Shown here piece by piece: positions 240 through 25,113 of a stretch of DNA of 25,259 bases. A program made the translations under genes and the position numbers. Source of the DNA: a virus. The stretch spans positions 1 through 25,259 of the IMG/VR virus record IMGVR_UViG_3300010296_000075; one strand, given 5' to 3'. Position 1 is the first letter of the stretch. Each line of letters begins with the position of its first letter. The notes under the pieces are model-generated. The model saw only the letters and a list, made by a program, of their open reading frames with translations, was not told the DNA's origin and did not search any database.

Positions 240-737
240 CTAGCGCGAGAATAAATGCTGGTGTTCGTATATTGATTTCAGACTTTCTTTCAACAGCTTT
301 GACAGTCCTGTCCGGTTTGTGTTCCCGCTGATGTCCGAGAACTCCCGGATGGAGCAATCGTAAATAATGAAACCCTCCAGCAGTTCGTGTGCCGTCGGGC
401 CAAAGCGCTCGACCACGAACCGACGTAGCTTTTTCAGGATGGCTCTGGCCTCAACCTCTTTGTTCGAGTACACCCGCGCACCCGAACCCCTGACGCTGTT
501 TAAACGGCCAAGCTGGGACTGCACCGAGCCGTGAAGCTGGGCGGTGTATGCGAGGTTCCACCACCAATTCGCAATGTCGTAATCCTGTTCGGACAACTGA
601 CCGCGTAGGTGCGCCCGGTCAATCTGGCGCTGGTCCCTTCGCTTCAGTGTGGATTTATATTTCTCAACCCACACAACCTGAAAGGAACCTTGGTCAGTGT
701 CGATGACCTCTCGCTTATTTTTTGGGGAATTTTTCAA
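240..737 (-). CDS. Putative phage regulator, C-terminal HTH-like region
   Basis: This is the last gene of the minus-strand early operon. The frame is open to an ATG at 821, but that would overlap the helicase by over 100 nt. I prefer a TTG at 737-735 because AGAGGG sits 8 nt upstream and the overlap with the helicase stop falls to about 23 nt; a GTG at 674 is another option. The resulting protein of about 165 aa has a basic N-terminus, a Trp-rich stretch (ANWWWNLAY), and a C-terminal region of alternating helices that faintly recalls DUF6456-type or sigma region 4-like HTH domains. Function is not recognised with certainty; position at the operon end would suit a transcriptional switch protein. 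One GTTTAAAC site lies inside at 498, read as Leu-Asn. Confidence 0.55.
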   Translation of the reverse strand: MKNSPKNKREVIDTDQGSFQVVWVEKYKSTLKRRDQRQIDRAHLRGQLSEQDYDIANWWWNLAYTAQLHGSVQSQLGRLNSVRGSGARVYSNKEVEARAILKKLRRFVVERFGPTAHELLEGFIIYDCSIREFSDISGNTNRTGLSKLLKESLKSIYEHQHLFSR

Positions 738-2220
738 AGAACACGCCCTCTTCTTCTGGCAGGATGCGAAGATGATTGTCGAGCGGGGTGAACTGGAACC
801 GTTTGACACCCGGCTTTCCAATCTTTCTGTGATACCTAGATTTTACCACCAGCACCGCCATGATGCCGTCGCTCTCTGCATGCACAATGACGCCAAGGTC
901 GCACCGGTTGGCCCAGCTTGCCGTGTCAGCAATGTCGTATAGGGTGATGGGTTTGTCCCGCATCTCAGCTTTGATTTTAGTCGGGTGCGCCACGATGATT
1001 AGGTGGACACCCCACTTCTTTGCAAACTTCTTGAACTTACGGATGGCCAGTGACGTGTATTCATGGGTGGACTGCTTGTTGCCCACCTCATGTTCGACCT
1101 CGTTCCATGGGTCAATGACCACGATGTTCACATCATGCCGCAAGATGACCGTCGCCACCCGCTCAAGGATGTAGTCCACAGTTGGAAACTCATCGTCATC
1201 CGGGTAGAGAAAGAAGAAGTTGCGGTCAATCCAAGCGTGGCATTGCTGGCGCTGCGCGTCGTCCTTGAAGCGCGGCACACCGCCCGGTGTAAAGTTAGCG
1301 CCACCACCATGCTCTTCAAGCCACCAGATTTCGAGGTTCTCCCGGTGGTCGTCCTGCGGGTTCTGCTCGAAGCTGGCAAATATAGTCTTGAGACTATGCT
1401 GGTCGGCCATCTTGCAACAGATGTGATTCACCGCTGACGATTTGCCATGGCCGGGGACACCAGACCAAACCGCAAAGTCACCCAGCCTGATTTTCATGTG
1501 GTCATCGAAGGCACCCATGCCCAATGCGTAGGTGGGTCTTGATGGGCTGGGAGGAAGGTCGGACATCTTGTAGACACCAGAGACTGGCATCCATTTGCTA
1601 TGTTCCTCAATGGCTTTCTTCACACCGGCCACGCCGTACTTCATCAGCGCGTCGTTCAGGTCCTTGCATCCCTTCGGGTAGCGCACCCATTTGCAACGCC
1701 CCTTCCCCAGCCGCTTGGCCAAGTCATCACGCAGGATTTGCCCCGGCCCATCGTCATCGGTGGCTAGGATGATTTCCTTCACGTCGAGCAAGTCATCGTA
1801 GGCGTCATCCAGAAAGCTGTACTTTCGAGAATGCTGGTCGTCCGCGAGTGATTGCGTAGGTGCGCCATCGGGACACGAGACCACCCGGACAAACCCGGCA
1901 GTCGCTGCCGCCAATGCATCACACTCACCCTCCGTTATGATTAGGGGCTGGTGCGCTAGCGTCCTGTCTGTGATGACATCGTAATTCCAGAAACACTTTT
2001 CCCCACCAGCATCTTGGAAGAAGTTCTTCTCGTTTAAACGCCGGTGCTTGTTGTTGACGACCTCGCCGCCTTTGATGAAGGGAAACGTGATGCGCTCATG
2101 TGTACCATGTACGCCGAGGCGCAGAGCGATGTCCGTGTCCAGCTTCCTGTCTTCGAGAAACCGAATCATCTCGTTTGAAACCGGCTCCTGAACGCCAGCC
2201 GCAGTGGTGACAGCAGACAT
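715..2220 (-). CDS. Replicative primase-helicase (TOPRIM + RecA-like, T7 gp4B/Twinkle type)
   Basis: This 501-aa protein should prime and unwind DNA at the phage replication fork. A TOPRIM domain is visible at about residues 85-175, with ITEGECDAL carrying the catalytic Glu near 94 and ATDDDGPGQ the acidic DxD near 154. A SF4 RecA-like helicase domain follows: Walker A GVPGHGKSS near residue 255 and Walker B NIVVIDPWNE further on. The N-terminal zinc-binding domain of T7 gp4A is absent here and is encoded by the gene just upstream in another frame. The ATG at 2220 has AAGGAG 9 nt upstream, and the same frame is closed by a TAA shortly before it, so this start is secure. No DNA polymerase is seen in the window. 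Confidence 0.93.
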   Translation of the reverse strand: MSAVTTAAGVQEPVSNEMIRFLEDRKLDTDIALRLGVHGTHERITFPFIKGGEVVNNKHRRLNEKNFFQDAGGEKCFWNYDVITDRTLAHQPLIITEGECDALAAATAGFVRVVSCPDGAPTQSLADDQHSRKYSFLDDAYDDLLDVKEIILATDDDGPGQILRDDLAKRLGKGRCKWVRYPKGCKDLNDALMKYGVAGVKKAIEEHSKWMPVSGVYKMSDLPPSPSRPTYALGMGAFDDHMKIRLGDFAVWSGVPGHGKSSAVNHICCKMADQHSLKTIFASFEQNPQDDHRENLEIWWLEEHGGGANFTPGGVPRFKDDAQRQQCHAWIDRNFFFLYPDDDEFPTVDYILERVATVILRHDVNIVVIDPWNEVEHEVGNKQSTHEYTSLAIRKFKKFAKKWGVHLIIVAHPTKIKAEMRDKPITLYDIADTASWANRCDLGVIVHAESDGIMAVLVVKSRYHRKIGKPGVKRFQFTPLDNHLRILPEEEGVFFEKFPKK

Positions 2221-2374
2221 AAATCTCTTCTCCTTCCATCTTTACAGCGAGAGGTTTGTCCCTCTTGTTATTTTTCCTCTGGCCCTGACACTTGGGGCAG
2301 TACACCTTTTGCCAAAGCCGTCCGGGCCTCAGTCCATGGATGTCATGCTCTGCGATGAAGTCGTCCCGCGTCAT
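2096..2374 (-). CDS. Separate primase zinc-finger protein, overlapping the helicase gene
   Basis: This encodes 92 aa with a CPKC pair near residue 25 and a CCHHCGW cluster near residue 54. The spacing matches the zinc-ribbon of T7 gp4A and DnaG-type primases, which reads the template trinucleotide for primer synthesis. Its ATG overlaps the TGA of the upstream gene as ATGA, a classic translational-coupling junction, which supports it being expressed. The last 125 nt overlap the primase-helicase start, whose frame is shifted by +1. The zinc-finger and the TOPRIM/helicase parts are therefore made as two chains, or joined by frameshifting. The C-terminal tail after the zinc site (Arg/His-rich) is probably not a folded domain. 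Confidence 0.75.
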   Translation of the reverse strand: MTRDDFIAEHDIHGLRPGRLWQKVYCPKCQGQRKNNKRDKPLAVKMEGEEIYVCCHHCGWRSGAGFKRDDSVSRRQEAGHGHRSAPRRTWYT

Positions 2375-3298: not shown

Positions 3299-3308
3299 GA
3301 TTTACTCC

Positions 3309-3344
3309 CCATATACGAATTAATATGGCTCGTTATGACATAAC
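3309..3344. promoter_or_regulatory. Palindrome pair in the gap between nrdJ and the replication genes
   Basis: In the roughly 80-bp AT-rich gap after nrdJ, CCATAT (3309-3314) and ATATGG (3323-3328) form a 20-bp inverted repeat. GTTATGACATAAC (3332-3344) is a perfect 13-bp palindrome. Both are just upstream of the TTG-start gene at 3298. They look like operators or promoter elements that set the replication genes apart from nrdJ; no convincing -35/-10 pair was found. Confidence 0.35.
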
Positions 3345-3379
3345 CTTTCTCACGCTGCAACCCTTTCGCCTATTTCCTT

Positions 3380-5074
3380 CTATTCGCAGGATTTCATGCC
3401 TGTTTCTGGGTCGATGAAGCAAGCCTCTGCTTTCTGCTCCTCTTCCTTGACCTCGTTCAAAACGCCAAACCTCTGGCCGCTGGCCCGAAACGTCGTACAC
3501 CCTTTCGCGCCGCCCTTCCATGCATCGTAGTACAGCTTCTTGAACTCCTCGAACTTGACGTGGTCACCCACATTGCAAGTCTTGGAGCAAGCTGAGTCGA
3601 TATACTCTTGAGCAACGAGCAGAACGCTCATGTGTTCCGACGCCTCAATCTCATTGGCTGTGCGGCCAGAGACCTGACGAGCGAAGGCATAGTCCTCGAC
3701 GCGCTCTACGATTGGACCGTCGAATGTCTGGATGGTCCGGTCGTAGAAGAGAGAGAACGGCGGCTCAATACCGGACGACACGTTGTCGGCTGACAGGGAG
3801 ATGGTTCCCGTCGGGGCGATGCTTGTCAGGTGCGAGTTGCGAATGCCATGCTGCTGGATGAGATTGCGGACCCGCTCCGGCAGCGACTTGATGTGTTCGC
3901 CTTGCAGGTACAGGTCGCGTTTAAACATCGGAAACGCACCCTTCTCTGCTGCCAGCATAGCGGATGCCGTGTAGCACTCGTCACGCAGACAGGCCAGAAC
4001 CTTACGCTGGAAGTCGAGGAACTTCTCTGTTGCGTATGGCAGTCCCATCATCTCACCGGCGTTTGCAAGGCCTGTAACACCCAGCCCCATGCGACGCTTG
4101 TTCTTGGCTTCCTGCTTCTGCTGGGGCAGCGGGTAGCTCGTCTTGTCAATCACATTGTCCATGGCCCGGACTACATGATGAATGTCTTTCTTCATCTGGT
4201 CGTAGTCGAAGTCACCGCTGTGTGTAACATACTGTGTGAGATTGAAGCTGCCCAAGAGGCACGCGCCATACGGCGGCAGACACTGCTCGGCGCATGGGTT
4301 CGTCGCTTCGAGCGTCTCGCAGTACCACAGGTTGTTGTACTTATTGATGGTGTCGAGGAACAGCACACCCGGTTCTGCCCAGTCCCATGTGCTTCTCATA
4401 ATTTTTTCCCAAAGCTCGACCGGGTCCACCTCTTTATAGACCTTGCCCTCGAACTTGAGTTGGAACGGTGTGCCTGTCTCCAGCGCTTGCATGAACTCAT
4501 CCGTCACACCGACTGAAATGTTGAAGCCGGTCAGCTTGTCGCTGTTGTTCTTACAGGTGATGAACTCCTCCACATCGGGATGGTCCACGCGCAAAACGAG
4601 CATCTGAGCGCCACGTCTGTGACCTGCACTTGAGATGGTGCCGCACACGGCGTCAAAGATGTGAGCGAAGCTGATTGGCCCTGATGCACGACTGTCCAAA
4701 GACTTAATCCAATCACCACGCGGACGGATGCGACTGAAGTCGTAGCCGATGCCACCGCCACGGCGCATGGTCTCGGCGGCCTCGGTTGCCTTCTCCATGA
4801 TGGATGACATCGAGTCTTCGATGATGCCGCTGACGAAGCAGTTAAACGCTGTTACCTGCCGGGGCGAACCAATGTCGGTCTGCACTCGACCCGCTGGCAG
4901 AAAGCGCATGTTGCCAAGGATGTCCTTCAGCGCCACGCGGTGGTCGTCATTGTCTGCAAGTGTTGCGGAGATACGGTAAACCTTACCGGCGAAGTCTTCA
5001 CCGTCGCCACGGTACTTCATCTTGTCAATTTCTTCAGAAATCGGGAGGGTCGGACCCATCATCATGCTGGTCAT
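3380..5074 (-). CDS. nrdJ: Class II (adenosylcobalamin-dependent) ribonucleotide reductase
   Basis: This 564-aa enzyme reduces ribonucleotides to deoxyribonucleotides, feeding phage DNA synthesis; class II enzymes use coenzyme B12 and need no small subunit or oxygen. The signature NPCAEQCLPPYGAC holds the active-site Asn, Cys (thiyl radical) and Glu, plus the Cys corresponding to C419 of the Lactobacillus enzyme. The AFNCFVSG Cys corresponds to its redox partner C119. Also visible are IAPTGTISLSADNVSSGIEP, the SKTCNVGD segment, and GGAKGCTTFRASGQR near the end. The last 12 residues hold two Cys (CFIDPETGMKSC), the swinging tail that re-reduces the active site. ATG 5074 has GAGGAAGAG upstream. 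It overlaps the preceding gene by 41 nt. A GTTTAAAC site is at 3919 (Phe-Lys). Confidence 0.97.
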   Translation of the reverse strand: MTSMMMGPTLPISEEIDKMKYRGDGEDFAGKVYRISATLADNDDHRVALKDILGNMRFLPAGRVQTDIGSPRQVTAFNCFVSGIIEDSMSSIMEKATEAAETMRRGGGIGYDFSRIRPRGDWIKSLDSRASGPISFAHIFDAVCGTISSAGHRRGAQMLVLRVDHPDVEEFITCKNNSDKLTGFNISVGVTDEFMQALETGTPFQLKFEGKVYKEVDPVELWEKIMRSTWDWAEPGVLFLDTINKYNNLWYCETLEATNPCAEQCLPPYGACLLGSFNLTQYVTHSGDFDYDQMKKDIHHVVRAMDNVIDKTSYPLPQQKQEAKNKRRMGLGVTGLANAGEMMGLPYATEKFLDFQRKVLACLRDECYTASAMLAAEKGAFPMFKRDLYLQGEHIKSLPERVRNLIQQHGIRNSHLTSIAPTGTISLSADNVSSGIEPPFSLFYDRTIQTFDGPIVERVEDYAFARQVSGRTANEIEASEHMSVLLVAQEYIDSACSKTCNVGDHVKFEEFKKLYYDAWKGGAKGCTTFRASGQRFGVLNEVKEEEQKAEACFIDPETGMKSCE

Positions 5075-5796: not shown

Positions 5797-5843
5797 GTCT
5801 TTATGTCTTACGTTCTGCTTCTGTTCACCTTGTCATTTGTCCT

Positions 5844-5870
5844 TTTATAGGAAATATTGTGAGACATCAA
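5844..5870 (-). promoter_or_regulatory. Candidate early promoter for the minus-strand replication operon
   Basis: Read on the minus strand, TTGATG (5870-5865) and TATAAA (5849-5844) are separated by 15 bp, slightly short for sigma70 but the best pair in the gap. It would fire into the nuclease gene starting at 5796. The inverted repeat at 5853-5885 overlaps the -35 and spacer, which would let a bound repressor block it. Confidence 0.45.
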
Positions 5871-5885
5871 GCGTCTGGCAGTATT
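5853..5885. promoter_or_regulatory. 33-bp imperfect inverted repeat, candidate repressor operator
   Basis: AATATTGTGAGAC (5853-5865) and GTCTGGCAGTATT (5873-5885) form 13-bp arms matching at 10 positions around a 7-bp centre. It lies in the divergent gap between the CI-like gene and the replication operon and overlaps the candidate minus-strand promoter. Binding by the neighbouring repressor is inferred from position and symmetry only. Confidence 0.5.
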
Positions 5886-5925
5886 CTTGCACACCTTGAA
5901 ATTTGAAATAAAACAGAGGCATAAC

Positions 5926-6612: not shown

Positions 6613-6641
6613 AACACCTCACTTGTAGAAAGAACACCTTT

Positions 6642-6678: not shown

Positions 6679-6679
6679 C

Positions 6680-6708: not shown

Positions 6709-6715
6709 GGGACAT

Positions 6716-7582
6716 ATGAAGTTAATCGACTCACATCTTGTCCCAGAACCTTTCCGCTCTGCCATCTTTGATGACAAGTACGAGAAAGGGATTGACGTAG
6801 TTGCGTCAGCAACCACCATCATCAAGCCAGTCCGCGTCACAAAGCTCCGCAAGGAGTACTTTGCTGACATGCAGGAGAGCGCGGTACGCCGTGTGTCTGC
6901 CTTGCTGGGGACTGCGGTTCACAACATTCTTGAGGAGTATGGTGAGGGCCTTGGCTGGCATGTCGAGCGTCGCCTGTATGGGGTGAGCAAGTCGGGGCTT
7001 TCATATTCAGGGCAGCTTGACGCCCTAATCCCTAATGGAGACGAGACGTGGACAATCGGCGACTACAAAGTCGTACCCACGTTTAAACACAACCAACTGG
7101 ACGAGTACTACGACCAGCTTAACATCCAAGCCGCGCTGGCCCGACAGGCTGGCTACGATGTCACCGGCCTCAAGGTTGTTGCCATCTTTAAGGACTGGAT
7201 GGAGAGCCGCTCAAAGCTGTCCGAAAACTACCCGCCCACACCCATCGTAGAATACGACGTTCCGATGCGTGACCCGGACGAACTAGACGATTGGATTGAC
7301 AGCCGTCTGCGTCAGATTGTGGGTGACGACCTGCCTGAGTGCAGCCCAGACGAGCGCTGGATGCGTGACGACAAGTGGGCCGTCCATAAACCAAAAGCGA
7401 AACGTGCCACCAAGGTGTTCGACAACAAGGCCGAAGCCGAGTCGTTCCTTGAGGTGGCTCTCAAGGGCAAGGGTCATGTGGACCATCGTCCAGCCACGCC
7501 CATTCGCTGCACCAACAACTATTGTGGCGTCGCTGAGTGGTGCGCTCAGTGGCAGGAGGAGAAGCACCTATGGAATCTATAG
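6716..7582 (+). CDS. RecB/Cas4-like PD-(D/E)XK exonuclease
   Basis: This 288-aa protein begins the recombination operon. GTAVHNILEEY (GxxxHxxxE-type motif), YSGQLDALI with the metal-binding Asp, and TIGDYKVV with the D-x-K motif are the order expected in RecB-family nucleases. The C-terminus has three Cys (RCTNNYCGVAEWC), recalling the iron-sulphur cluster of Cas4/AddB-type members, though a fourth, N-terminal Cys is not evident. With the ERF annealase and SSB-like genes that follow, it likely resects double-strand ends for single-strand annealing recombination. ATG 6716 fits the domain start; an upstream in-frame start at 6680 would lie inside the promoter. A GTTTAAAC site is at 7081 (Phe-Lys). 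Confidence 0.85.
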   Translation: MKLIDSHLVPEPFRSAIFDDKYEKGIDVVASATTIIKPVRVTKLRKEYFADMQESAVRRVSALLGTAVHNILEEYGEGLGWHVERRLYGVSKSGLSYSGQLDALIPNGDETWTIGDYKVVPTFKHNQLDEYYDQLNIQAALARQAGYDVTGLKVVAIFKDWMESRSKLSENYPPTPIVEYDVPMRDPDELDDWIDSRLRQIVGDDLPECSPDERWMRDDKWAVHKPKAKRATKVFDNKAEAESFLEVALKGKGHVDHRPATPIRCTNNYCGVAEWCAQWQEEKHLWNL

Positions 7583-9005: not shown

Positions 9006-9292
9006 GTCTGGCGAAAGATTGGAGTGGTCCCCTGTTCCTCGGCGTCGAGCCTAGCTCCGCCACCTCAGTTGCCACTTCCGTCATTAGTTCGTCGCTCCGT
9101 GTACGCGGGATGCTACTCCGAGCGGTTTAATTTGGGAGGGGCGTAGTGTGTGTAATGCGCTCCTCCCTCTTCTAATTCCTGTGTGAGTAGGCCTGAAGAA
9201 GGACGAAGGCACGGGATAGCGGGGCGGCGGTTGTTGCACTTTTTACTTAGTGATGCACTCCTCCGTCCCGCGCTTGTTTAAACGAGGTTGGT
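9006..9292. other. 287-bp non-coding gap before the int/xis genes
   Basis: No credible reading frame was found on either strand. It holds a GC-rich hairpin at 9134-9167, two TGCACT direct repeats spaced 20 bp apart around 9236-9261, and a GTTTAAAC site at 9276 just before the GAGG ribosome site of the next gene. A small RNA or a regulated leader is possible, but no clear promoter was seen. Confidence 0.5.
9134..9175 (+). terminator. Candidate terminator or structured RNA hairpin
   Basis: GGGAGGGGCG (9134-9143) pairs with CGCTCCTCCC (9158-9167) over 10 bp including one G-U, with a 14-nt loop. A pyrimidine-rich but broken tail (TCTTCTAATT) follows, so termination may be weak. It is placed suitably to end the recombination operon after the HNH gene. 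Confidence 0.42.
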
Positions 9293-11071: not shown

Positions 11072-11515
11072 TTAGCTAATTTGCGCCAGCCGATTACTGA
11101 GCCGCATAGCCCTGTTCGGGGTTTGCTTCGCCCATCTGGAATCCAAAATTTCTTTTGAGCATTCGAGCCACTTGCCTTCGTTGGCCAGTTTGATGCTGCG
11201 TTTAAACCTGCTTAAACGCGGCCTTCCGAGTTGAAAGCACATGTTTGCGAATACTCTTTGCGCTTGTTCCGGCATAAACGAGAAGTCATCAAAGATTAGC
11301 TGGCAGTCGTCAATCGTCACAGCAATGTCGGTGTCAAACATCTCGTCAACACGCTCGTCGGTGATGCTGTCACCCACCTCCATCGGCCACTCTGGGTCAT
11401 CCGCTGTAATCAGATGACCGATGCCAACCGTCCGCTTTGATTCACTACAAAGGTACACCTCGTTACGGCGTCCCTCGTCGGCGGCAATCTCTTCACGCAG
11501 CTTGTCGATGTCCAT
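11072..11515 (-). CDS. GH24 (T4-type) lysozyme, endolysin
   Basis: This 147-aa muramidase should cut the peptidoglycan glycan strands for lysis. The catalytic region DEGRRNEVYLC...RTVGIGHL aligns with the T4 lysozyme triad: Glu is kept, the position of Asp20 is Cys, and Thr26 is kept. The E-8-(D/C)-5-T form is known in phage GH24 enzymes. The C-terminal lobe (QAQRVFANMCFQLGRPRLSRFK; NRAMRLSNRL) fits the family. The frame opens to 11665, but ATG 11515 has GGAG 8 nt upstream and overlaps the methyltransferase stop by 23 nt. No signal peptide is seen, so export should need the holin. GTTTAAAC occurs at 11200, with a near-copy (GCTTAAACG) 11 bp on. Confidence 0.92.
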   Translation of the reverse strand: MDIDKLREEIAADEGRRNEVYLCSESKRTVGIGHLITADDPEWPMEVGDSITDERVDEMFDTDIAVTIDDCQLIFDDFSFMPEQAQRVFANMCFQLGRPRLSRFKRSIKLANEGKWLECSKEILDSRWAKQTPNRAMRLSNRLAQIS

Positions 11516-13118: not shown

Positions 13119-16100
13119 TTATTTTCCTGCTCTGTCCAATAATCTTTCCACCCGCTCCGCGATTTGATTCCTGCGGTTGATGAGGGTGTTGAGCCGGTCT
13201 TTCTTGTCGGCAGAGGACATCGTCGCGTTGTCACGGACACGGTTAATCTGCTTGGTAATCTTGGACAGGCTGTCTGCCAGCTTGTTGACCGAGCGACGGA
13301 CAGACAGGAGCTTCCGGTTCTCCGTCATCAGTTCACGGGCTGCCTCGCGCCGCCCGGATTCACGCAGCGCACGGACGCCAGTGTAAATCTCGTTGGCTTC
13401 GCGGCGCAGGTCGTAAACCTCACCCACCCATTTGTTGGATGGGTCAGCACCCTCACGGATGAAGCGGTTGATGCCAAGGATGTCGCCACCGGGCATCACA
13501 CCATCTGGCTTTGCCGGGATGAGACCGGCACTGGACAGGGCTGTGTCGATGGTGTTCAGGGACAGGATGCCCAGCGTACCGAGGTGGCCGCGCACCAGAG
13601 CTTCTAGCTGAACAGGGCTAAGGCCCAAGGTGTCTCCAGTTACAGAGCCAATGCCTTGGAGGACCGACGACGTGGTGGTGTCAGCACGTTGTCCCTTCGG
13701 CAGGTTCTGAAGGCGACCGCTCTCAATCTCCCGGCCACGGAAGAAGTCGTAGTTCGTGTAAACCTCAAGGGTCGGACGAATGACCTGCGGGATTGGGTTG
13801 AACGAGAAGGTGTTGAAGAACGTGTGCGCCGCTGCGTCAGCCACATACTTGCCGCCCTCTTGCCCAGAGATAACGTCGAGGACAACCTCCGGCAGCGTCT
13901 GCGCCAGAACACCAACCTCGAAGGCCTTCGGGATGAGGATGCGGTAATCGCCAGCATACAGGATGTGGTAGTTCATCTTCCTGTAGAGCGGTTCATCATC
14001 CCACCGGTCATCGCCAGAAGACAGCGCCCAGATGGCAGTGGACACGGCACTGAGCATACCTATACGAGCAATGGCCTTCCTCTGGTCCGCCTCTTTGCCA
14101 GCCAGTGCTGTGCCTGTTCTGTAGAGGCCTTGAATACGAGCGTTGAGGAACGGCACCATCGGGATGAGGAGAGACAGAACCTGACCGGCCCGTGTCTGTG
14201 GATTGCCACGACGGTTGAAGTTGACGAGGTTCAGGGCTTGGTAGGCTGCCTCAGTCTTGGACCCGGTCCTCTCAAGTGTTGCGCGGTAGATGCCATCGCG
14301 TGTGGACAATTCTGATGCCTCACCGACATCCTGCAAACCGTCGATTGCTTTGCGAAGCTGGGCAACCACGTTGGTCTGCGGGTCAATCTTGCGTTTAAAC
14401 ACGTTGGCAAAGTCGCGGCTGTCCTGCCCGTATGCATAGCCACCCACACCAGAGATGGCCTTCATCTCCTCCGACACACTGTCGTTTTGCAGCACGTTCT
14501 TGAAGCCCTTCAGTGTTCCGAAGATTGGCTTCTGCCCCTCTGTCACAGTAACAAAGCCAGCAATGTCACCACGGATGAGGTTGGCCAGCATGAAGTTCGG
14601 AGCCAGTGTGATGGCGTTACGGAAGATGCCGGTCACCTTCTGCACAATGTCCATCAGGCCGGTAAGCTGCGGAGGGCTGAACGACGACAACGCCATGAAC
14701 ATGCGCTGGTTGAAATCAGAGTCGGCGTTGTCCGCGCCCTCTAGGTCCATGTAGACTTTGTTGCCGTCCTCGTAATAAGTGACCACAAACGGGTTACCGC
14801 TCTCGCGCTCAGTAACCCGGCGAGACATTTTGAGGGTCTCCATGTTGTTGAGCGCACGTTGCATGGCCACGTTCTTGAGACCAGCGTTAATCATCGCGTT
14901 GTTGTTCTTGATGATGTTCTCGTACAGGTCAGAGATGGTGCCTTCACGGCCCGTCAGTTCCTGAATACCAGCGTCTGGGTTGTTGAACACCTGCGTTACA
15001 CGAGGACCGAGGATGGAGTTACGGACCATCTTCTTACCTGTGCCGTACTCCTCCTGCTCCATGTACTTGTAGTACGGAATGTAGTCGATGTTCATCGCCT
15101 CACGCTGGGCTTCGGAGATGACGCCGGTGTCTACAAGAAACTGAAGCGTGTTCTGATTGAACTTGTTGTAGCGGTCAAAGACATCACGGAACTCAGCGCT
15201 CTCAAACTGCATACCATCGGCAATGCGCTCATTCGTCAGGGTGTCATCCAGCCGCTGCTGACGCTCTTCTAGTTTGCGGACCTTGTCTTTGAGTTGGTTC
15301 TTGGTCTTCTTGTCTGCCGTCGCAGCAATCTGCTGCTGGAGAACAGCGACCCGGCGGCGGGTGTCATCTTTGAGTGTCAGCGCACGACGAGCAATCGCGT
15401 ACTGCTGGAACTGCATATACCGCTCACCAGAGCCAATGCTCTTGAAGATGTCGAGAAGGCCTTCGGAGTTTTCATTGATGCCAATCTCGCCGGTGTTCCT
15501 GTCATAAGTCAGGTTGCCGTGCATCAGTGAGAACTCTGAACGACCAGAGTTGTTGGTGGCAAGCTCTGCCATCTTGAAGGCGGACGTGGTGGCTAGGCCA
15601 ATCTCACCCTTGTTGGCCAGCTTGTCGAGTTCAGCCAGCGGCTGGAACCTGTTGATGTTGTCATCAATCCAGCGACCGCTGCGGAAATAGTTGGAGAACC
15701 CTTCACGGGCCTTGCGTAGTACGCCCTCGGTGTCTTGTCGTGCAAGGACATCAATCATCCGGCCTGTTTGACCGATTGTTTGTGGCGAGGCGGAAGCCCT
15801 TACTTCGAGGACTGCGCTGTACTTGGTTGTTCCTTGGGCGTCTGGTCCGGTGCCATCGGTGTTACCTTGGCCAGTCCCTCGAACCCTTGGTTGAACAAGT
15901 TGTCCGCCTTGTCTTTGGAGGAGTCCTGAGAGGGCGGCGTTGTCGATGTCGTCTCGCTCATAATATGGTTTCTCTTTGTTCTGACTGATTTGGAATTTAG
16001 AGGGTAGTATACCATCGCTCTTGAGTTTTTTCGACAACCTTTCAAAGACAGCTTGTGCCTTGTCGGATGTGAACTCGAACATGTTACCCAGACCGTCTGG

Positions 16101-19100
16101 GATGTGGACGTATGGCTGACCGTTCTCTTTGTAGCCATAAACAGACCCGCCCTTGAACTGGATGTAGCGCCCCTCTTTGGTGGTGATGCTGTTGTATGGC
16201 TGGTCGATGCCCATGGCGTCGTGGATGATGCCGTCAATGGTGCCGTGGTCCACCTCTTGTGCTGAAGATGCAACCCAGCTTTCCCAGTGGAAGCGTCCCA
16301 TGGAAGCGTCAGCCTCACGGCCAATCATCTTGTATGCCTTGCGGACAGCAGGAAGCAGGTCACGCTCCAGCGCTTCGTACATCATCAGGCCCATCGTGTC
16401 GTCACCCATCTTCTGGATGGACGAGCCTGTGACCGCCTTCTTGTTCTCGGTCACACCGTCATAGAGGTTGTAGTTGCCAAGACGGCCATCGTTGAACAGG
16501 TTACGGAACTGGACACGGTCGAGGACCAGAACGTCATTGCGGCCAGAAACTAGCAGCATGAAGGACACGACCTTGTTGTTTATGCCAATGCTGGTGTTCA
16601 TCTTGTGGAACTCGCGCCGCACCTGCTTGCCAGACAGCGACTGGTCGGCCACAAGGTTGTGAAACTTCTGGAGCATGGTGAGACCGTCCGGCCCCTTCTT
16701 AGACATCTTTGCCAACGTCATTGTGCCGAAGGCGTTCAGGTTGTGCGTAGCACCAGCACCGGGGCTGTTCTCAGGGATGGCTGTCTTGACCCAGTCAAGG
16801 TATGCATCAAGGTCAAAGTTGCCTTCAGCAGCGTCTTTGATGAACTTACCCACACCAGCCTTGTTGCCGCGCTCCTGCACCACGTCTAGGAACAGGCTCT
16901 CCTGCACAAACGGGCTGACGCCACGAGACAGAATGCCCCACAGGATGAGCTTGCCGGTATGCTCTGGCTCGGCAAGTCCGCCTTCATAGGCAAGCCTAAA
17001 CTTTTCAGCCGAATCAAAACCTGCCTGTGCCATCTCACGCTGGCCTTGTGTCAGACCGCCAATCTGTTCGGCAATCATGGCAGGGTTGTTGGCCATCTGG
17101 ATGGCCCGGAACGGCGGCATGGGGACGGAACCGTCCTTGTTGTCCTTACCCATGGCGTCTGACAAGAAGTCTGCGAAAGCCTTCTCAGAGGCCAGTGTGT
17201 TGGGGTGGTCGTTCAGCAACCCATCCAAGTTGTCGATTTGCCGCTCGGCGTTATTCGGGTTAACACTGGCGTTAATCTTCCGTGGGTGGTCGAACTTCTT
17301 GTCGGTCTTGAAGCGCAGGAATGGCAGCAGACCCAGCGCCCTGTTGTCTCTGACAGATGTGTCTGTCGTCAGTAGTGTACTGGCCTGTGGTGCTGCACCT
17401 ACTACCGGGCGCTCTTGGCCAGCGAACCGCTGCGCTGTGCGACCAGTGCTGGCGTCGCGCATAACATCCTGAACCGAGCGGAAGCCACGACCCATGATGA
17501 GGTTCTTCATCCGTGGGAAGAACTGGGACAGCATGTTGAGGAACCTGCGAACAGGACCGCCAGTGCCGGGTATGTTCTTGCCCTCACGCCTCGCTTGGTC
17601 AAAGGCTTGGAATGTGTAAGCAGCAATTTCACCAGCGTTCAGCGTCTTGCCGCGAAGCTGTCGGTCTATTTCAGGGTTTAAACGCCTGATGAACTTAGCT
17701 GCACCGCTGCGGTCGTACTCAACCTGCTGCCGGGGCTTGCCAAAGAATGCGTCGAGGATTTTCTCCGAGCCTTTGTCGTATGCAGCAAAGTAATCCTGAA
17801 GGGTGTGGAACGCTTCGTGCGCTGCCGTGGAGCGGACGGTTTCTGGGGACAGGGCCAGCGACAGTTCGATGATGCCATTGGTTACATCCTGTGTGCGGGA
17901 GGTGTTCAGGCCAGCTACCTGACCACCGGCCTCGCCGCCACTGCCTTCGGCTGCACCGCCACGGTCCATAAGCTGCTGCACAAACCGGATGCGGTCACGG
18001 CTTCGTTGTGGAAGTATTTCGTTTAGCACATCGGCGGTGTCGAAGATGGTGACGGCTTGCTCTACAGAGATGCCGCGCCGACGCACCGCTTGCTCGACAG
18101 CCCGTGCAAGTATGCCACCTTGGTCGCCCGATGCACGAAGGGCGTCTATACGCTCCTGTATGCGCCTGTTAGCGGCCTCAAGCTGCTCCGGGGTAACCCG
18201 TGCCTGTGGAGTGGCAGGAGCCGCCTGTGGGGCTGCTGGAGCGCCTGTTGCAGCGGACGCTTTTGTCGGGTCAATGAGGCCCAGAGCCTCGTCTTCTTTG
18301 ATGAGCTTGGCATCAACAAGGTTCTGAAGACGGACAGGGTCACCCGACGCCTTTACGTCCTTGACCATATCCTCCTTTAGAAGCGCTACAGCTTCCTTTT
18401 TGGCGGTTTTCTTTTCAGGAAGCAGTCTACTGAAGTCGCTTTCCAGAAGCTCGCCAAATTGGTCTACCTCTTGCCAATTAACATCAAGGACAGTGGGTCC
18501 CTGTTCCGCCGGGTCAATCCACATCAAGTACCGACTGTCCACACCGTCTGAAACCTCAACGACAGGATAACTGTCAAACGGGTCTTTGCGTTTGTCGGGC
18601 CGGTCTGGGTTGAAGGGCATGACCTCTTGGGTCTTGAAGCCGGTTACCTTGGTGCCGATGAGTGACGGTTTGGCTGGGATTAAATCATAGGCTTGGTCGT
18701 ATTGGTCTCCAGTAAGGTCACCTTCGTCAAAGAAGCTGTCCAGTGCCTTTTTCCGACGCCCTTCAATCGCCTCTTTGACCCGCTTCCGCAGACTGTCTGA
18801 CCCCTGTATGGTGGCAACGAAGTCATCAATCGGGCTGGCCGGTGCTGGGTCTGGCGTTGGCGTCGGTGCTGGTGTCACGCCAGTCCGGGCGGCATCAGCT
18901 TGAGCGACAACGTCCTGCTGCAAAAGAGCGCGAGCTTCTGTGATGCGCTCCTTCAACCCATTGATGTCCTGCGCTACACGGGCCTTGCCCCGCATTTTGC
19001 CAGTTTGCTTGCGTCCTTTAGCGATGTCTGTGGCACCAGTGATTAGCCTACTTGTGCTGCCGCTCAGTTGAGACATAGCCTTTTTGAGGGCTTGCTCTTT

Positions 19101-21296
19101 GGGCGTCCCTTCGAGAGCAATGTCATCACGCATGACGCCGCCGCGATTGATTTCATTGTTCAGCAGTTCGTAAGTTGCCTTCGCTTCGATGTAGGCATCC
19201 TCGACACCATCCACGGTCTTGGATGCGGCAAGGTCATCGCGCTCCTCGACAGCGATGGAATCAAAGTCAGGAGGGACTTCGTATTGAGGATTACCGTCCA
19301 TCGCGGCTTGTTTAAACTCAGCCTTTGGCTGTAGTTCAGCGACCGAATTGGTGGCCATGTTGAGAGCCTGTTGCATCGTGACGTTGAGTGTGCCGCGCTG
19401 ACCGCTGAGTACTTGGTCACGCATTTTCTCAATGCTCTCAACTCGACCTGCCGCTGCTTTGAGCGGCATAGCCCGAAGCGTCTCAAGCTGCCTGTCAATC
19501 TCCGGCAGCAGCGCCATTTCTTCTTGGGAAACCCGTTCAGGTATTCTGGCTGTTCCCGGACTACCACCCGCAAACTCGCTTACCCCGCCTTCTGGTGTCA
19601 GGATTGGGGTGGTCTGAGCTATGGCGGCAGGGTCTGTTTGACCGGGCGTGACGGGCGTTTCAATGACCCTGACAGTCGGGTCAGGATTTGCACGAAGCTG
19701 CTCACGGACAGCCGCAGCTTCCTCTGCGCTCACGCGCTGGTATGACGGTGTGCCGTTTGGGCCTAGCTTTTCAATCGCAAAGCGAGAAGGTTGGAGAGTT
19801 GGCTCTGCACGAAGCTGCCCCTCTTCTGGCAGCAGCGACGTAGCCGCTCCCTTGCCGCCACCCTTGCTAGTACCGGCGGCGGCTTCTGCCGCACGTCTTT
19901 GCTGCTCCTCCGGGTTCGGCTGCCCGGTACGCATCCGGGAGGTCTCGCCAATATACTCAGGCCCGGTGTAAATCTCCCTGAACCTAGTGCGAAGCAACTG
20001 AGCCTGTTGCACCGGGTCGGAAATTCTGTCCAATATTTCTGGAATTTGCGGGTCTACATTCCGGTTGTTCTCCGCAAACTCTATTAAGTCCCTGCCACTC
20101 AACATTACCGGCTCGCCGCTTCTGTCTATGGTGGTGGGGACAGGCTCATTGAGTATTCGCTCTGATTGCGGCACGTCGAGAAGAGGCACATCAGGGTCAG
20201 GCATGGACCGGGCAATGACCTCTTGGCCGCCCTGCTCAATGTCAGTCCTTACAGTCTGGATGTCGTCGCGAAGCTGTTGCTGTGCCTCTGCCTTCTCACG
20301 GGCTTCACGCTGCTGTGGGCTTTCACCCGGAATGCCACTGACCAGACCAAAGGCCTTACCGCCAATGGCACCACGCAGACCAGCGTCGAGGATGCGGTCC
20401 ACGTTTTCTTGCGTGAAGAACTCAGGATTGTCTTTGAGGAGTTGTGCTGCGATGAGGTTGTTGGCTTCCTGAACACCTTCAGTCAGGCCTTCAACGGCTG
20501 CACCCTTGCCCCCGCCAATCATCAGGCGTGTAAACAGGGACCGGGCAACCTCGTCTCTGGCGTTTTTGCCAAGGGCTTTGGCAACGCCTACAGGGAGAAT
20601 GGAATCCAGTGCAGCGTTAATGGAGCCGACAAACAGGGCGGTCGCGGCTGCGGGTTCGCCCGTCTCTTCTGCGATGGAGGTGTATGCTTCGGGGATTGTT
20701 TGAGAACCAGAACCGGCAAACGTACCAGCGACAAAGCCGATGCCCTTACCCTTCTTGACGGCAGCTTCAGCCGCGTCTCCGACCAGCTTTCTAGCAAAAC
20801 CTTCAGCGGCTTTCTTGCCGACAAAGCCACCAATGCCACCGCCAAGCAGTGATGTAGCGATGGACGGAATAAACTGACCGATGGTCTCTGCTGCGTACAG
20901 GCCAGCATCACCAGCGTCTTCGATGTCACGGAAGGTGCGGACAGCGGACGGAGCCTTGGCTTCGATGTCCGCCATGGTCTCTTGGTATTCTTGAAGCTGG
21001 CGGTCCCGGTAGTCGTCAGCGCCCACAAGGTCAGCCGCGATGGCTGGCAGGGCGTCACCTAGCAGCGCACCGGTTTGGCGGGTGCCACGGTACAGTCCTG
21101 TCTGGAAGGCATCGAAGAACGAGGTCTCGTCTTTAATTTTCTCGCGCTCTGTGCGCTCCTTCTCAACAAGAAGCCCCTCGATTTCTGCTACTGTTCTGTT
21201 GGGATGAAACTTCTTGCGGTAACCTTCAATCAGTTCCTCGTCCGACTTTTCGTCGTACATAGGAAACTGTTGACGCAGGGCATCAATAAGCGCCAT
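13119..21296 (-). CDS. Giant polyvalent virion protein with zincin motif (LPD38-type C-terminus)
   Basis: This protein has 2725 aa. The N-terminus (FPMYDEKSDEELIEGYRKKF) is typical of large polyvalent or ejected phage proteins. Gly/Ala-rich hydrophobic stretches lie at about 115-245 (SIATSLLGGGIGGFVG, AAATALFVGSINAALD) and could enter a membrane. Pro/Ala/Thr linkers occur near 810 and 1020. AAHEAFHTLQDYF near residue 1160 holds an HExxH zincin metallopeptidase motif. Coiled coil occurs around 1985-2030. FMLANLIRGD near 2232 and the long C-terminal helical tail (YDLRREANEIYTGVRAL onward) resemble LPD38 regions. Such proteins are packed in podovirus heads and injected. The ATG has GGGGGG upstream. 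Three GTTTAAAC sites lie inside (14393, 17676, 19310). Confidence 0.93.
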   Translation of the reverse strand: MALIDALRQQFPMYDEKSDEELIEGYRKKFHPNRTVAEIEGLLVEKERTEREKIKDETSFFDAFQTGLYRGTRQTGALLGDALPAIAADLVGADDYRDRQLQEYQETMADIEAKAPSAVRTFRDIEDAGDAGLYAAETIGQFIPSIATSLLGGGIGGFVGKKAAEGFARKLVGDAAEAAVKKGKGIGFVAGTFAGSGSQTIPEAYTSIAEETGEPAAATALFVGSINAALDSILPVGVAKALGKNARDEVARSLFTRLMIGGGKGAAVEGLTEGVQEANNLIAAQLLKDNPEFFTQENVDRILDAGLRGAIGGKAFGLVSGIPGESPQQREAREKAEAQQQLRDDIQTVRTDIEQGGQEVIARSMPDPDVPLLDVPQSERILNEPVPTTIDRSGEPVMLSGRDLIEFAENNRNVDPQIPEILDRISDPVQQAQLLRTRFREIYTGPEYIGETSRMRTGQPNPEEQQRRAAEAAAGTSKGGGKGAATSLLPEEGQLRAEPTLQPSRFAIEKLGPNGTPSYQRVSAEEAAAVREQLRANPDPTVRVIETPVTPGQTDPAAIAQTTPILTPEGGVSEFAGGSPGTARIPERVSQEEMALLPEIDRQLETLRAMPLKAAAGRVESIEKMRDQVLSGQRGTLNVTMQQALNMATNSVAELQPKAEFKQAAMDGNPQYEVPPDFDSIAVEERDDLAASKTVDGVEDAYIEAKATYELLNNEINRGGVMRDDIALEGTPKEQALKKAMSQLSGSTSRLITGATDIAKGRKQTGKMRGKARVAQDINGLKERITEARALLQQDVVAQADAARTGVTPAPTPTPDPAPASPIDDFVATIQGSDSLRKRVKEAIEGRRKKALDSFFDEGDLTGDQYDQAYDLIPAKPSLIGTKVTGFKTQEVMPFNPDRPDKRKDPFDSYPVVEVSDGVDSRYLMWIDPAEQGPTVLDVNWQEVDQFGELLESDFSRLLPEKKTAKKEAVALLKEDMVKDVKASGDPVRLQNLVDAKLIKEDEALGLIDPTKASAATGAPAAPQAAPATPQARVTPEQLEAANRRIQERIDALRASGDQGGILARAVEQAVRRRGISVEQAVTIFDTADVLNEILPQRSRDRIRFVQQLMDRGGAAEGSGGEAGGQVAGLNTSRTQDVTNGIIELSLALSPETVRSTAAHEAFHTLQDYFAAYDKGSEKILDAFFGKPRQQVEYDRSGAAKFIRRLNPEIDRQLRGKTLNAGEIAAYTFQAFDQARREGKNIPGTGGPVRRFLNMLSQFFPRMKNLIMGRGFRSVQDVMRDASTGRTAQRFAGQERPVVGAAPQASTLLTTDTSVRDNRALGLLPFLRFKTDKKFDHPRKINASVNPNNAERQIDNLDGLLNDHPNTLASEKAFADFLSDAMGKDNKDGSVPMPPFRAIQMANNPAMIAEQIGGLTQGQREMAQAGFDSAEKFRLAYEGGLAEPEHTGKLILWGILSRGVSPFVQESLFLDVVQERGNKAGVGKFIKDAAEGNFDLDAYLDWVKTAIPENSPGAGATHNLNAFGTMTLAKMSKKGPDGLTMLQKFHNLVADQSLSGKQVRREFHKMNTSIGINNKVVSFMLLVSGRNDVLVLDRVQFRNLFNDGRLGNYNLYDGVTENKKAVTGSSIQKMGDDTMGLMMYEALERDLLPAVRKAYKMIGREADASMGRFHWESWVASSAQEVDHGTIDGIIHDAMGIDQPYNSITTKEGRYIQFKGGSVYGYKENGQPYVHIPDGLGNMFEFTSDKAQAVFERLSKKLKSDGILPSKFQISQNKEKPYYERDDIDNAALSGLLQRQGGQLVQPRVRGTGQGNTDGTGPDAQGTTKYSAVLEVRASASPQTIGQTGRMIDVLARQDTEGVLRKAREGFSNYFRSGRWIDDNINRFQPLAELDKLANKGEIGLATTSAFKMAELATNNSGRSEFSLMHGNLTYDRNTGEIGINENSEGLLDIFKSIGSGERYMQFQQYAIARRALTLKDDTRRRVAVLQQQIAATADKKTKNQLKDKVRKLEERQQRLDDTLTNERIADGMQFESAEFRDVFDRYNKFNQNTLQFLVDTGVISEAQREAMNIDYIPYYKYMEQEEYGTGKKMVRNSILGPRVTQVFNNPDAGIQELTGREGTISDLYENIIKNNNAMINAGLKNVAMQRALNNMETLKMSRRVTERESGNPFVVTYYEDGNKVYMDLEGADNADSDFNQRMFMALSSFSPPQLTGLMDIVQKVTGIFRNAITLAPNFMLANLIRGDIAGFVTVTEGQKPIFGTLKGFKNVLQNDSVSEEMKAISGVGGYAYGQDSRDFANVFKRKIDPQTNVVAQLRKAIDGLQDVGEASELSTRDGIYRATLERTGSKTEAAYQALNLVNFNRRGNPQTRAGQVLSLLIPMVPFLNARIQGLYRTGTALAGKEADQRKAIARIGMLSAVSTAIWALSSGDDRWDDEPLYRKMNYHILYAGDYRILIPKAFEVGVLAQTLPEVVLDVISGQEGGKYVADAAAHTFFNTFSFNPIPQVIRPTLEVYTNYDFFRGREIESGRLQNLPKGQRADTTTSSVLQGIGSVTGDTLGLSPVQLEALVRGHLGTLGILSLNTIDTALSSAGLIPAKPDGVMPGGDILGINRFIREGADPSNKWVGEVYDLRREANEIYTGVRALRESGRREAARELMTENRKLLSVRRSVNKLADSLSKITKQINRVRDNATMSSADKKDRLNTLINRRNQIAERVERLLDRAGK

Positions 21297-21307
21297 GTCG
21301 CCCCCCT

Positions 21308-23656
21308 TTAATTAAGACCTAGAGGGTCCGCTGGTGCCGACTGCCCTCCGCCGCCAGACTGACCAAACGCATTGCGAATTGACTTGGCGTAATAATCAAT
21401 CGCCGCCTCCGGGTTTTCCGCTTCGACACCCGGAATGATTGCATTCGGGTCCGCTTGGTACATCTTGGTTGCTGCTGCAAGAATGTCATCTTCGGTGACG
21501 GCACCGGTTTGAGCCTTCTCACGGCCAAGAAGGATTTCTTTCAGACCGTCTTCACCAAACTCGCCCTTCATCCACTCCAGCTTGGCAACCGAGTCTGCTG
21601 GCTTGTCCAGACCAATGGCCTTGAGTTGCTGGTCAATAGCGGTAGACGCCTTCTGCCAGTCGAGTTTGTCTCGGTCGAGGCCAAGCTGTTCGGCCAAGAT
21701 GCCAATCTTCGCGTCACCCTGCTCAACAGTTGCGACTGTCTTGAATAGTTCAGAGTTGGCCAGCATTTCATTGACCGTCTGAGCGCGTTCCTTAATCCCC
21801 ATGTTAAACTTACCAGTCTCTTGCTCGAACCCAAATCTGTCACGGGCAAGCTTAAGCTGGCCTTCGTCGAGTTGAACTCTTTGTTGGTCACGACCGGCTG
21901 CGTCAATCTTGAGACCCGCTTCGAGGTCGAGTTGGGCTGCTGATTGAAGGGAAGCCTCCCTTTCTGAGACGCTGTCCCGCTGTGCTTTGGCAATGTCGAT
22001 TTGACCCTGAGTGATTTGATTGGCCATCGAGTTAATCTTGGTGTTGATGTCCACCTTGGCCTTCTGAAAATCCACGGCAGCGCTGTATTTGTCGAATAGG
22101 TTTTGCTTCTGCTCTGCGTTTAAACGGTCGAAGGTCTCAATACCGACCTTGCCAGCTTCACCAACAGCATTGAGGAAGTTCGCTTCTTTGCTTCCAGCAA
22201 GAGCGAGACCTGCATCAATCATGGACCGGAAGATTCGGTTCTCTGGCGTCATGGAGTTCTTCTCAAAGACATCCATGAACTTCTTCTGAGCATCAAGCAG
22301 CGCATTCATGTCTGTCTTGTAGGTTTCCAGCGCCTTTGCTTGGTCCTCGCTGGCATTTGCCATCAAGCCCTGAATCGTAGTGTCTAGGGCTTCCTTCTCT
22401 TTTATTGAGTCTTCTGCTCTTTGAGTGAATGTGGTGGTCTCACTGGTAACCTTGAATGGGTTGCTGTCGTCACCACCGGACTTTTGTGGGTCGCCACCAC
22501 CAACGCTCTTAATGCCACCGTCTGATGTGCTGCCACCTTCAGTTGTGCTTCCGCCGGAGGTGTTCGGCGTCGTCGCGGCAACGGTGGACCTGTCACCACC
22601 AACAGTCACGGGGCTTGGCGGCGTTGGCCTAGAGCTAGTGGTAGTGTTTACGTCGTCGCCTTTGACCCCGCCCTCTGTGGCCTCAACGTCACTCTTCATT
22701 GCGTTTAAGGCATTGTTGACGACCGACAGCGCGGTTGGGCTTGGCTTCTTGCCGCCATCAACACCCGGCCCCATACCGAGAGCGGATGAAAAGTCTGTGG
22801 AACCCGGCTCATAACCAATCGGACCGGCACCGTCTCCCTGTCTTATCCCCGCAGCTTTAGACTTCAGGTTGCCTGTACCAGCGTACATGCCCTCCGCTTC
22901 ACGGACATCCATGTTTGTCTTAATCATGTCGTCTGTGGCAGAACGAATGCCTCTTGCACGACGAGCGTCAATCGCACTCTGGAAGCCGGGGTCGAGTGGC
23001 ACCTTGTTTGCCGCGTCGATGACCTCTTGCTTGTCGAAGTATTCGCCCTGAAGCATCCTGAGAGGGTTGCGGTCGGTGCCGCCTACCTCACGCCCGAAGA
23101 TGTATTTTTGAGCGAAGGTCGGGCCGTCTGGCCCCTTAGAGACATTTGTTGCATATGGCGCAGATGCCTTGATGCCCATGTTGTCAAACACCGGAGCGTC
23201 TGGCGCTTCCTCTGCCGGTGGGCCTTGGTCAGTGACCATGCCCGAATCTTCCGTAGCTATACGGGCCACGTTCTTGGCATCACCCACCCGCGCAAGGTAT
23301 TCCATGTAGGTCTCGCGAGCGGGGTCGAATGGTTCGATGCCGACTTGCTCTGGGATGGGACTGTTGATGTTGCCACCCAGCGCTGTGACGATGCTTGGTC
23401 CGCCTTTTGCCATGCCCATAGGCTGTTGCTGTTGCGGCATCTGCTGCTGGGGCATCTGCTGCTGGGCTGTCATCATCTCCTGTACACGGGCCTGACGCTG
23501 CTGGTCAGCCATAGCCGCCTGACGCATAGATTGACGGCGGTTGATTTCAGCCACCACAAACTGCGAAGGGATTTTGTCAGGGCGCTTGAGCATTTGCATA
23601 AGCTGCCCGTCTGAGGCTTTCTGGAGGACGGCGGTGTACTGGGCGGGGTTAATCAT
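21308..23656 (-). CDS. Large Gln-rich internal virion/structural protein
   Basis: This 782-aa protein lies between the giant protein and the 329-aa internal protein. Its N-terminus (LMQMLKRPDKIPSQFVVAEINRRQSMRQ) recurs in marine podovirus virion proteins as I remember them. A poly-Gln/Met-Pro run follows at ~65-80. Residues ~310-410 are a Ser/Thr/Gly/Pro linker of low complexity. The rest is mainly predicted helix or coiled coil, with many Gln, Lys and Asp (residues ~420-690). There is no enzyme motif or signal peptide. A role in the internal core or DNA ejection apparatus is inferred from composition and place. A GTTTAAAC site is at 22118 (Leu-Asn). Confidence 0.87.
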   Translation of the reverse strand: MINPAQYTAVLQKASDGQLMQMLKRPDKIPSQFVVAEINRRQSMRQAAMADQQRQARVQEMMTAQQQMPQQQMPQQQQPMGMAKGGPSIVTALGGNINSPIPEQVGIEPFDPARETYMEYLARVGDAKNVARIATEDSGMVTDQGPPAEEAPDAPVFDNMGIKASAPYATNVSKGPDGPTFAQKYIFGREVGGTDRNPLRMLQGEYFDKQEVIDAANKVPLDPGFQSAIDARRARGIRSATDDMIKTNMDVREAEGMYAGTGNLKSKAAGIRQGDGAGPIGYEPGSTDFSSALGMGPGVDGGKKPSPTALSVVNNALNAMKSDVEATEGGVKGDDVNTTTSSRPTPPSPVTVGGDRSTVAATTPNTSGGSTTEGGSTSDGGIKSVGGGDPQKSGGDDSNPFKVTSETTTFTQRAEDSIKEKEALDTTIQGLMANASEDQAKALETYKTDMNALLDAQKKFMDVFEKNSMTPENRIFRSMIDAGLALAGSKEANFLNAVGEAGKVGIETFDRLNAEQKQNLFDKYSAAVDFQKAKVDINTKINSMANQITQGQIDIAKAQRDSVSEREASLQSAAQLDLEAGLKIDAAGRDQQRVQLDEGQLKLARDRFGFEQETGKFNMGIKERAQTVNEMLANSELFKTVATVEQGDAKIGILAEQLGLDRDKLDWQKASTAIDQQLKAIGLDKPADSVAKLEWMKGEFGEDGLKEILLGREKAQTGAVTEDDILAAATKMYQADPNAIIPGVEAENPEAAIDYYAKSIRNAFGQSGGGGQSAPADPLGLN
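23436..23465. repeat. 15-bp tandem repeat coding for Gln-rich run
   Basis: GGCATCTGCTGCTGG occurs twice in tandem (23436-23450 and 23451-23465), with a degenerate third unit beside it. On the coding strand it encodes repeats of the MPQQQ kind in the 782-aa virion protein. Being a multiple of three, changes in copy number would keep the frame. Confidence 0.7.
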
Positions 23657-23664
23657 CTGGCGAC

Positions 23665-24654: not shown

Positions 24655-24657
24655 TTA

Positions 24658-25113
24658 TTACTTCCACAAAAACTTGCTTGTGTCTCCGGTGATGATTGTT
24701 GTTCCCAGTTGTCTTCCGAGGCGTTTAAACAGCTTCGACTTACGGTCTTCATCGACCGGTCCAAAGTTAGCCATCAAAAGAGGGAGACCAGCTTGCGAAG
24801 CCATCTTCTTGGCTTCGTTTACCATCATGCGAAACGCCCGTGTCTTTCGTGCTTCGGGGGCAACGTATGTAAATGCGTCCATGAGTGCCTTGTCATCGGA
24901 CCACCAAAAGTCCGAAATCTTCAGGCCCATCACGGCACGGGGTAGGCTTCCGTCTTCGATGACTAGAATAACACCCTGCTGTAGGGTGGTGCGTACATGG
25001 CGTTCAACCTTGGCTACGTTGATTGAACCCATGCCACTCTCCTCATGCATTCTGAGGAGGAGAAATAGTATGTCGTTTACGTCCTCTTCGAGGGCCTTAC
25101 GAAGACGCAGCAC
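24658..25113 (-). CDS. GNAT-family N-acetyltransferase-like protein
   Basis: This 151-aa protein starts at GTG 25113 and overlaps the upstream gene by 17 nt. The pattern LRKALEEDVNDILFLLLRMHEES at the start, VILVIEDGSLPRAVMGL in the middle and FTYVAPEARKTRAFRMMVNEAKKMA (beta4-alpha3 with an acetyl-CoA loop-like R-K-x-R-A-F) fit the GNAT fold. Such genes are common among podovirus virion genes; the target is unknown, perhaps a virion or host protein. The canonical Q/RxxGxG/A loop is degenerate, so activity is not certain. A GTTTAAAC site is at 24723 (Phe-Lys). Confidence 0.82.
   Translation of the reverse strand: MLRLRKALEEDVNDILFLLLRMHEESGMGSINVAKVERHVRTTLQQGVILVIEDGSLPRAVMGLKISDFWWSDDKALMDAFTYVAPEARKTRAFRMMVNEAKKMASQAGLPLLMANFGPVDEDRKSKLFKRLGRQLGTTIITGDTSKFLWK

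Follow-up and report, generated by a model that had tools for sequence, protein, structure and literature searches.

The stretch of viral DNA analysed here (IMG/VR record IMGVR_UViG_3300010296_000075, positions 1 to 25,259; hereafter the window) raises the question of why a phage would carry many exact copies of a single octamer, GTTTAAAC. All eleven copies reported in a preliminary description are present, compared to a mean of 0.20 and a maximum of 3 in 100 dinucleotide shuffles, and GTTTAAAC is by a wide margin the most over-represented 8-mer of the window. Its one-mismatch neighbours occur at background level, while 11 of the 12 TTTAAA words of the window fall within copies of GTTTAAAC. 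The copies had also been described as evenly spaced, which holds in the window (P ~ 4e-5): their spacing is more even than random, with a probability of 3e-5 for a minimum of at least 1534 bp and of 4.5e-5 for the observed CV.

From left to right, with coordinates given without strand, GTTTAAAC is located in the gene for a 193-aa regulator (498..505, LN frame), a Toprim-DnaB helicase gene whose domains were detected (2032..2039), a ribonucleotide reductase gene (3919..3926, FK frame), a PD-(D/E)XK exonuclease-like gene (7081..7088, FK frame), the intergenic DNA directly ahead of the 149-aa gene at 9293 (9276..9283), a lysozyme gene (11200..11207, FK frame, with a near-copy, GCTTAAAC, at 11210), the LPD38 gene (14393..14400; 17676..17683, LN frame; and 19310..19317, FK frame), a 782-aa virion-region gene (22118..22125, LN frame) and a GNAT-like gene (24723..24730, FK frame). 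The LPD38 gene also contains two sites of a variant word, GTGTAAAC, both on the + strand (13756..13763 and 20528..20535).

The use of two coding frames, FK and LN, had been advanced against protein conservation as the sole explanation, which is a weak argument, because these are the only frames possible, the third containing TAA; two frames are thus not evidence by themselves. The conclusion itself is borne out by synonymous-codon shuffles that preserve protein and codon usage (n=2000), which gave a mean of 1.37 copies, one fixed intergenic copy included, and a maximum of 5, against 11 observed, thereby ruling out protein or codon constraint as the cause of the excess. An assembly linker was likewise rejected as the source, since 8-bp inserts would cause frameshifts, yet a 2725-aa frame spans several of the sites.

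The excess persists in the rest of the same genome. Three IMG/VR contigs (L005, L006 and L007), which are 99.97-100% identical to the window in the overlap, extend it by 5.7 kb rightward and by about 9.3 kb leftward and add five copies of GTTTAAAC. The resulting 40.8 kb, here called phage A, holds 16 GTTTAAAC (0.27 expected) and 7 GTGTAAAC (0.69 expected), the terminase-side and tail ends carrying GTGTAAAC and no GTTTAAAC. Taken together, the 23 sites are spaced more evenly than chance allows: a minimum spacing of at least 637 has a probability of 5e-5, and none of 200,000 trials gave a lower CV. The bases flanking the core are a pyrimidine on the left and a purine on the right in 27/32 cases, giving the consensus YGTKTAAACR.

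A relative, phage B (contigs L009-L011/L014), is syntenic with phage A at about 66-69% DNA identity (56% for the integrase) and contains no GTTTAAAC; its top 8-mer is GTGTAAAC, with 10 copies in 17.9 kb (0.38 expected; codon shuffle 0.73), and the third base of the word can therefore change. The perfect palindrome of the preliminary description is thus the main form in the window phage, but the non-palindromic GTGTAAAC, which A and B carry in both orientations, is in excess there too and is the main form in the relative. The site at 13756 is the only aligned one that A and B have in common, while the rest have turned over; for example, the sites at 11200, 14393, 20528 and 24723 read GCTTGAAT, CCTTGAAC, GGGCAAAT and GTCTAAAC, respectively, in B. 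Positions are therefore not kept, and the word is maintained rather than inherited in place. In about 24 other syntenic relatives, among them five contigs of 46-56 kb, GTTTAAAC is at background, the exception being G015 with 8 GTGTAAAC, partly protein-coded. Distant relatives totalling 1.08 Mb contain 16 GTTTAAAC (19.6 expected) and 31 GTGTAAAC (26.6 expected), and no top-ranked dispersed 8-mer there reaches z = 12. Comparison of LPD38, helicase, terminase and integrase with named phages returned distant matches only, and genome scans for a host using LPD38 and integrase alignments returned no relative.

These comparisons bear on the readers that had been suggested for the sites. The 193-aa regulator was rejected, as it is also present in motif-free relatives. 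The window encodes an integrase, an excisionase and a CI-like protein (5887-6612), by which gene content the phage is temperate, and L5-like phages offer a precedent for dispersed operators (PMC9283540); the sites might then be stoperators of the CI-like immunity repressor. This is highly unlikely, as the control region of the CI-like gene (5797-5886) contains no GTKTAAAC and relatives with CI homologues (G007, G014 and G015) have no excess of GTTTAAAC. An exact, 8-bp and mostly palindromic word would suit a HIP1-like iterated palindrome acted on by a DNA methyltransferase or a restriction-modification system, whether of the phage or of its host, and the window does carry a small NPPF-type putative N6-adenine methyltransferase gene (11493-12008); its product is 81% identical in B, and the other syntenic relatives that were compared do not have it. 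Against this, neither GTTTAAAC nor GTGTAAAC, the latter of which is not palindromic, occurs in nine phage loci whose enzyme is 55-60% identical, and we therefore give the phage's own methyltransferase little credence as the cause. The same putative gene occurs on otherwise unrelated phages (L020-L028), i.e., it is mobile.

The word is not confined to this phage lineage. A scan of IMG/VR with a query of two YGTTTAAACR about 480 bp apart yielded 80 loci among the matches listed, most of which are dense in exact GTTTAAAC, e.g., 37 in 12.4 kb (0.37 expected), where the selection guarantees two copies per locus, not twenty to forty. In the densest of the loci among the matches listed, mismatched forms of the word are not in excess. 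Many unrelated phages have 10-44 exact copies, and whole contigs hold up to 44, as against 0-3 of the reversed word. The motif-bearing contigs represent different tailed phages, with GTTTAAAC in phages recorded from Alphaproteobacteria, cyanobacteria, Betaproteobacteria and enterics, and GTGTAAAC in phages of Actinobacteria. Site layout varies, some contigs having one block of 8-10 kb and others dispersed sites; even spacing consequently describes the window phage and not the motif-bearing phages in general, many of which have clustered sites. About 24 motif-dense phages (L171/L177/L232/L247-type) carry amidoligase and glutamine amidotransferase genes, for which the control contigs gave no match.

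A motif-blind, all-against-all protein comparison of 99 motif-bearing contigs (those of A and B among them) with 101 control contigs returned as its top family a SprT-like protein, present in 63/99 motif-bearing and 0/101 control contigs; a HMM search for the family raised this to 67/99, against 0/133 controls. Contig counts make the evidence look more independent than it is, since many of the motif-bearing contigs have further genes in common; with a limit of >=3 shared families they form 13 groups, one of which has 50 members. The HMM gave no SprT hit in G021, G029 and G031, three long and motif-rich contigs that may be incomplete, and the contigs of relative B stop before the expected place of the gene. 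In phage A the gene is located about 5.2 kb to the left of window position 1 (L007:16871-17434, minus strand, 187 aa).

Family members share a conserved RE.WL close to the start, and their C-terminal part is a zinc ribbon of the form K.Q[STG]TR[ML].K..C..CGY..R.[ST].KW. The Pfam profile PF10263 scores the L166 member at 23.9 bits, against a cut-off of 25.6, and does not match that of the window phage. The metalloprotease motif HExxH is present in L166, Zeta1847, ep3 and others, while several other members have lost it, as has the phage A protein, which keeps the tail (KKQSTRM) in a phage that keeps the motif. An AlphaFold2 model (pLDDT 90.5) shows a body that is helical and metalloprotease-like, together with a beta-beta-alpha tail. 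Its fold matches in the PDB are weak, with all E-values above 0.001, and point to minigluzincins for the body (proabylysin 4jiu, probability 0.97, E 0.036) and zinc ribbons for the tail; a PDB sequence search with the protein gave no match. Threonine at the ribbon position R-x-[S/T] goes with tolerance of or preference for GTGTAAAC (P 0.0016), and the phage A protein, with its mixed set of GTTTAAAC and GTGTAAAC sites, has threonine there. This apparent association between Ser or Thr and the form of the word (T or G) is modest, other columns correlating too, and serves as a lead only.

The association was examined further in named phages, among which 166 records contain a SprT-like gene, annotated as 'SprT-like protease', 'transcription elongation protein' or hypothetical. 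Sixteen were analysed, eleven with the tail and five without. The word is found in 11/11 tail-bearing phages at 4-41 copies, either as GTTTAAAC (Pan1 16, R5C 17, Mica 7, ep3 4 and Mano 4) or as GTGTAAAC (Zeta1847 22, Emotion 17, Tweety19 26, Crosby 41, Honk 33 and 4A 13), the latter being the top 8-mer in Zeta1847, Emotion, Tweety19, Crosby and 4A. Phages that keep the SprT body and lack the tail have none (Katzastrophic, Armstrong, Eden and Epa43) or one copy (CN1); KSRSG.SIKL replaces the tail in Katzastrophic, Armstrong and Eden, and nothing similar is found in CN1 and Epa43. With kinship ignored, the correlation between tail and word in these sixteen phages has a Fisher P of 2e-4. Since the tail accounts for the presence or absence of the word here, a methyltransferase becomes very unlikely as its cause.

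Three of these phages, Honk (33 copies), Katzastrophic (0) and Armstrong (0), have the same listed host strain, Microbacterium foliorum NRRL B-24224, and the host therefore does not set the word. This tells against the suggestion that the word mimics a chromosome-organising or iterated motif of the host, for which dispersed, largely intragenic and, in the window phage, evenly spaced sites would be apt: phages of one strain carry many sites or none according to the SprT tail, and the same word recurs across phages of unrelated bacterial groups with a GC range of 0.30-0.71. Host mimicry thus has very little probability.

The gene neighbourhood suggests another candidate for the reader of the word. 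In phage A the SprT-like gene, here without HExxH, forms an operon-like trio with MoxR AAA and DUF7192 genes (L007:16871-19853, minus strand), a MoxR gene adjoins it in other phages too, and in L234 the SprT, MoxR and VWA genes lie side by side. It could be argued that the SprT-like gene is a passenger of a replication, transcription or MoxR/DUF7192 module in which another protein reads the word; yet MoxR-family genes occur in 13 motif-rich contigs, compared to 63 for SprT, and it is the SprT tail alone that separates motif-positive from motif-negative named phages. The passenger explanation is therefore considered improbable.

We consider it probable, from the genomic comparisons, that the phage-encoded SprT-like protein recognises the GTTTAAAC copies as sites (YGTKTAAACR) dispersed over the genome. 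The C-terminal zinc ribbon, K.Q[STG]TR[ML].K, probably reads the site, and the N-terminal SprT-like (minigluzincin metalloprotease) domain is often catalytically decayed, as in the window phage. The earlier view of the copies as dispersed, stoperator-like binding sites is in this way supported in its broad idea; the readers then named are not, and the one proposed here is encoded outside the window.

The positions of sites relative to the SprT-like gene suggest autoregulation. In 9/11 tail-bearing phages the conserved SprT start has a site in the roughly 110 bp upstream of it (0.43 expected, P 2e-12), R5C and 4A having none upstream of their own gene; of the four sites that ep3 and Mano have in 42 kb, one lies 17-19 bp away from the SprT start codon. 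In the environmental contigs an upstream site is found for 35/60 SprT genes as against 202/827 other genes. The nearest upstream site in phage A is a GTGTAAAC at L007:18417, ahead of the adjacent DUF7192 gene. Judging by this placement, it is very likely that the SprT-like protein controls its own gene via a site just upstream.

That the protein binds directly at the sites, and what such binding would do, we infer from these data. One of the likeliest roles is to block or silence transcription along the genome in the manner of stoperators, in keeping with the autoregulation and the clustered early regions; we hold a transcriptional roadblock or silencing as a tentative assignment, somewhat short of an even chance. 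Alternatively, the bound protein may position a protease (SprT itself or the adjacent MoxR AAA with a partner) to strip proteins off phage DNA, in keeping with what is known of SprT and MoxR and with sites spread widely along genomes, but several readers lack HExxH; such protein clearing is possible, if rather doubtful. Genome organisation, replication or packaging takes up the remaining probability. A broader and speculative proposal, which we hold with low confidence, is that unrelated tailed phages share a system for protein clearing or silencing that is autoregulated and directed to sites. In it the SprT-like protein would read YGTKTAAACR tags along the phage genome and bring a metalloprotease (its own domain, or the MoxR AAA protein with partners) to proteins on the DNA such as host silencers, defence proteins or stalled polymerases, and tail and tag would evolve together between their T and G forms.

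Dispersed operators of temperate phages read by dedicated repressors include the conserved inverted repeats of phiC31 and the c1 operators of P1; these resemble the present sites in being dispersed on temperate phages, but are longer and lie mainly at promoters. The stoperators of mycobacteriophage L5-type phages, read by the immunity repressor gp71 (PMC9283540), are likewise short sites in many dispersed copies with a phage-encoded reader whose specificities differ among related phages. Phage A, with its 23 GTKTAAAC in 40.8 kb, is similar in this respect, but differs in that its predicted reader is a SprT-like zinc-ribbon protein and not a HTH repressor, and in that its sites are mostly intragenic, unlinked to the CI-like gene (none at 5797-5886) and of mixed orientation, with a palindrome as the main form and GTGTAAAC in both orientations rather than an asymmetric site in fixed orientation. 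HIP1, GCGATCGC, is a highly iterated palindrome that belongs to the host genome, in cyanobacteria, and goes with orphan methyltransferases (PMC4390886); the paper on it does not mention GTTTAAAC. HIP1 too is an exact iterated palindromic octamer far above expectation, whereas the present word is carried by phages of unrelated hosts, follows a phage gene and is missing from the nine phage loci with a methyltransferase similar to that of the window phage. SPRTN (the SprT/Spartan metalloprotease) is a DNA-binding protease for DNA-protein crosslinks (PMC5127644); the phage proteins resemble it in the HExxH of many members and, more tentatively, in a weak Pfam SprT-like match (PF10263) that stays below the cut-off, but their TR[ML] zinc ribbon is distinct and goes with an 8-bp site, and they have often lost the catalytic motif, which is absent from the protein of the window phage.

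The link between the word and the SprT-like tail appears to be undescribed, neither GTTTAAAC nor GTGTAAAC being tied to phages in the literature searched, the coverage of which was partial. The tail-to-motif code gives phage SprT-like proteins, which have had no established role, a candidate target, provides a new marker for reading phage genomes, and is testable in cultured phages of Arthrobacter, Microbacterium, Streptomyces, Dinoroseobacter, Burkholderia and E. coli. If true, it would constitute a dispersed-site system across phages of unrelated hosts, apart from immunity.

Other iterated words were observed in the same genomes. TTATCCACA-like (DnaA-box) words are in excess in the GTTTAAAC-bearing contigs L159, L162 and L234, and Pan1 and R5C (L323-L324) also have an iterated CTCGCTTAT / GTCGCTTAT word in 6-10 copies. 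In Arthrobacter phage Emotion (L318 / OQ709216.1) the palindrome TTCACGTGAA occurs seven times and extends to TGTTTCACGTGAAACA-like words, which resemble bacterial parS sites. In phage A, AACCCTAATGGAG recurs just 5' of the start codons of many left-side genes (window 192-204; L007 12456, 13100, 14432, 15735, 16363, 17444 and 19694), and this repeat proved to be a shared ribosome-binding or translation-start region.
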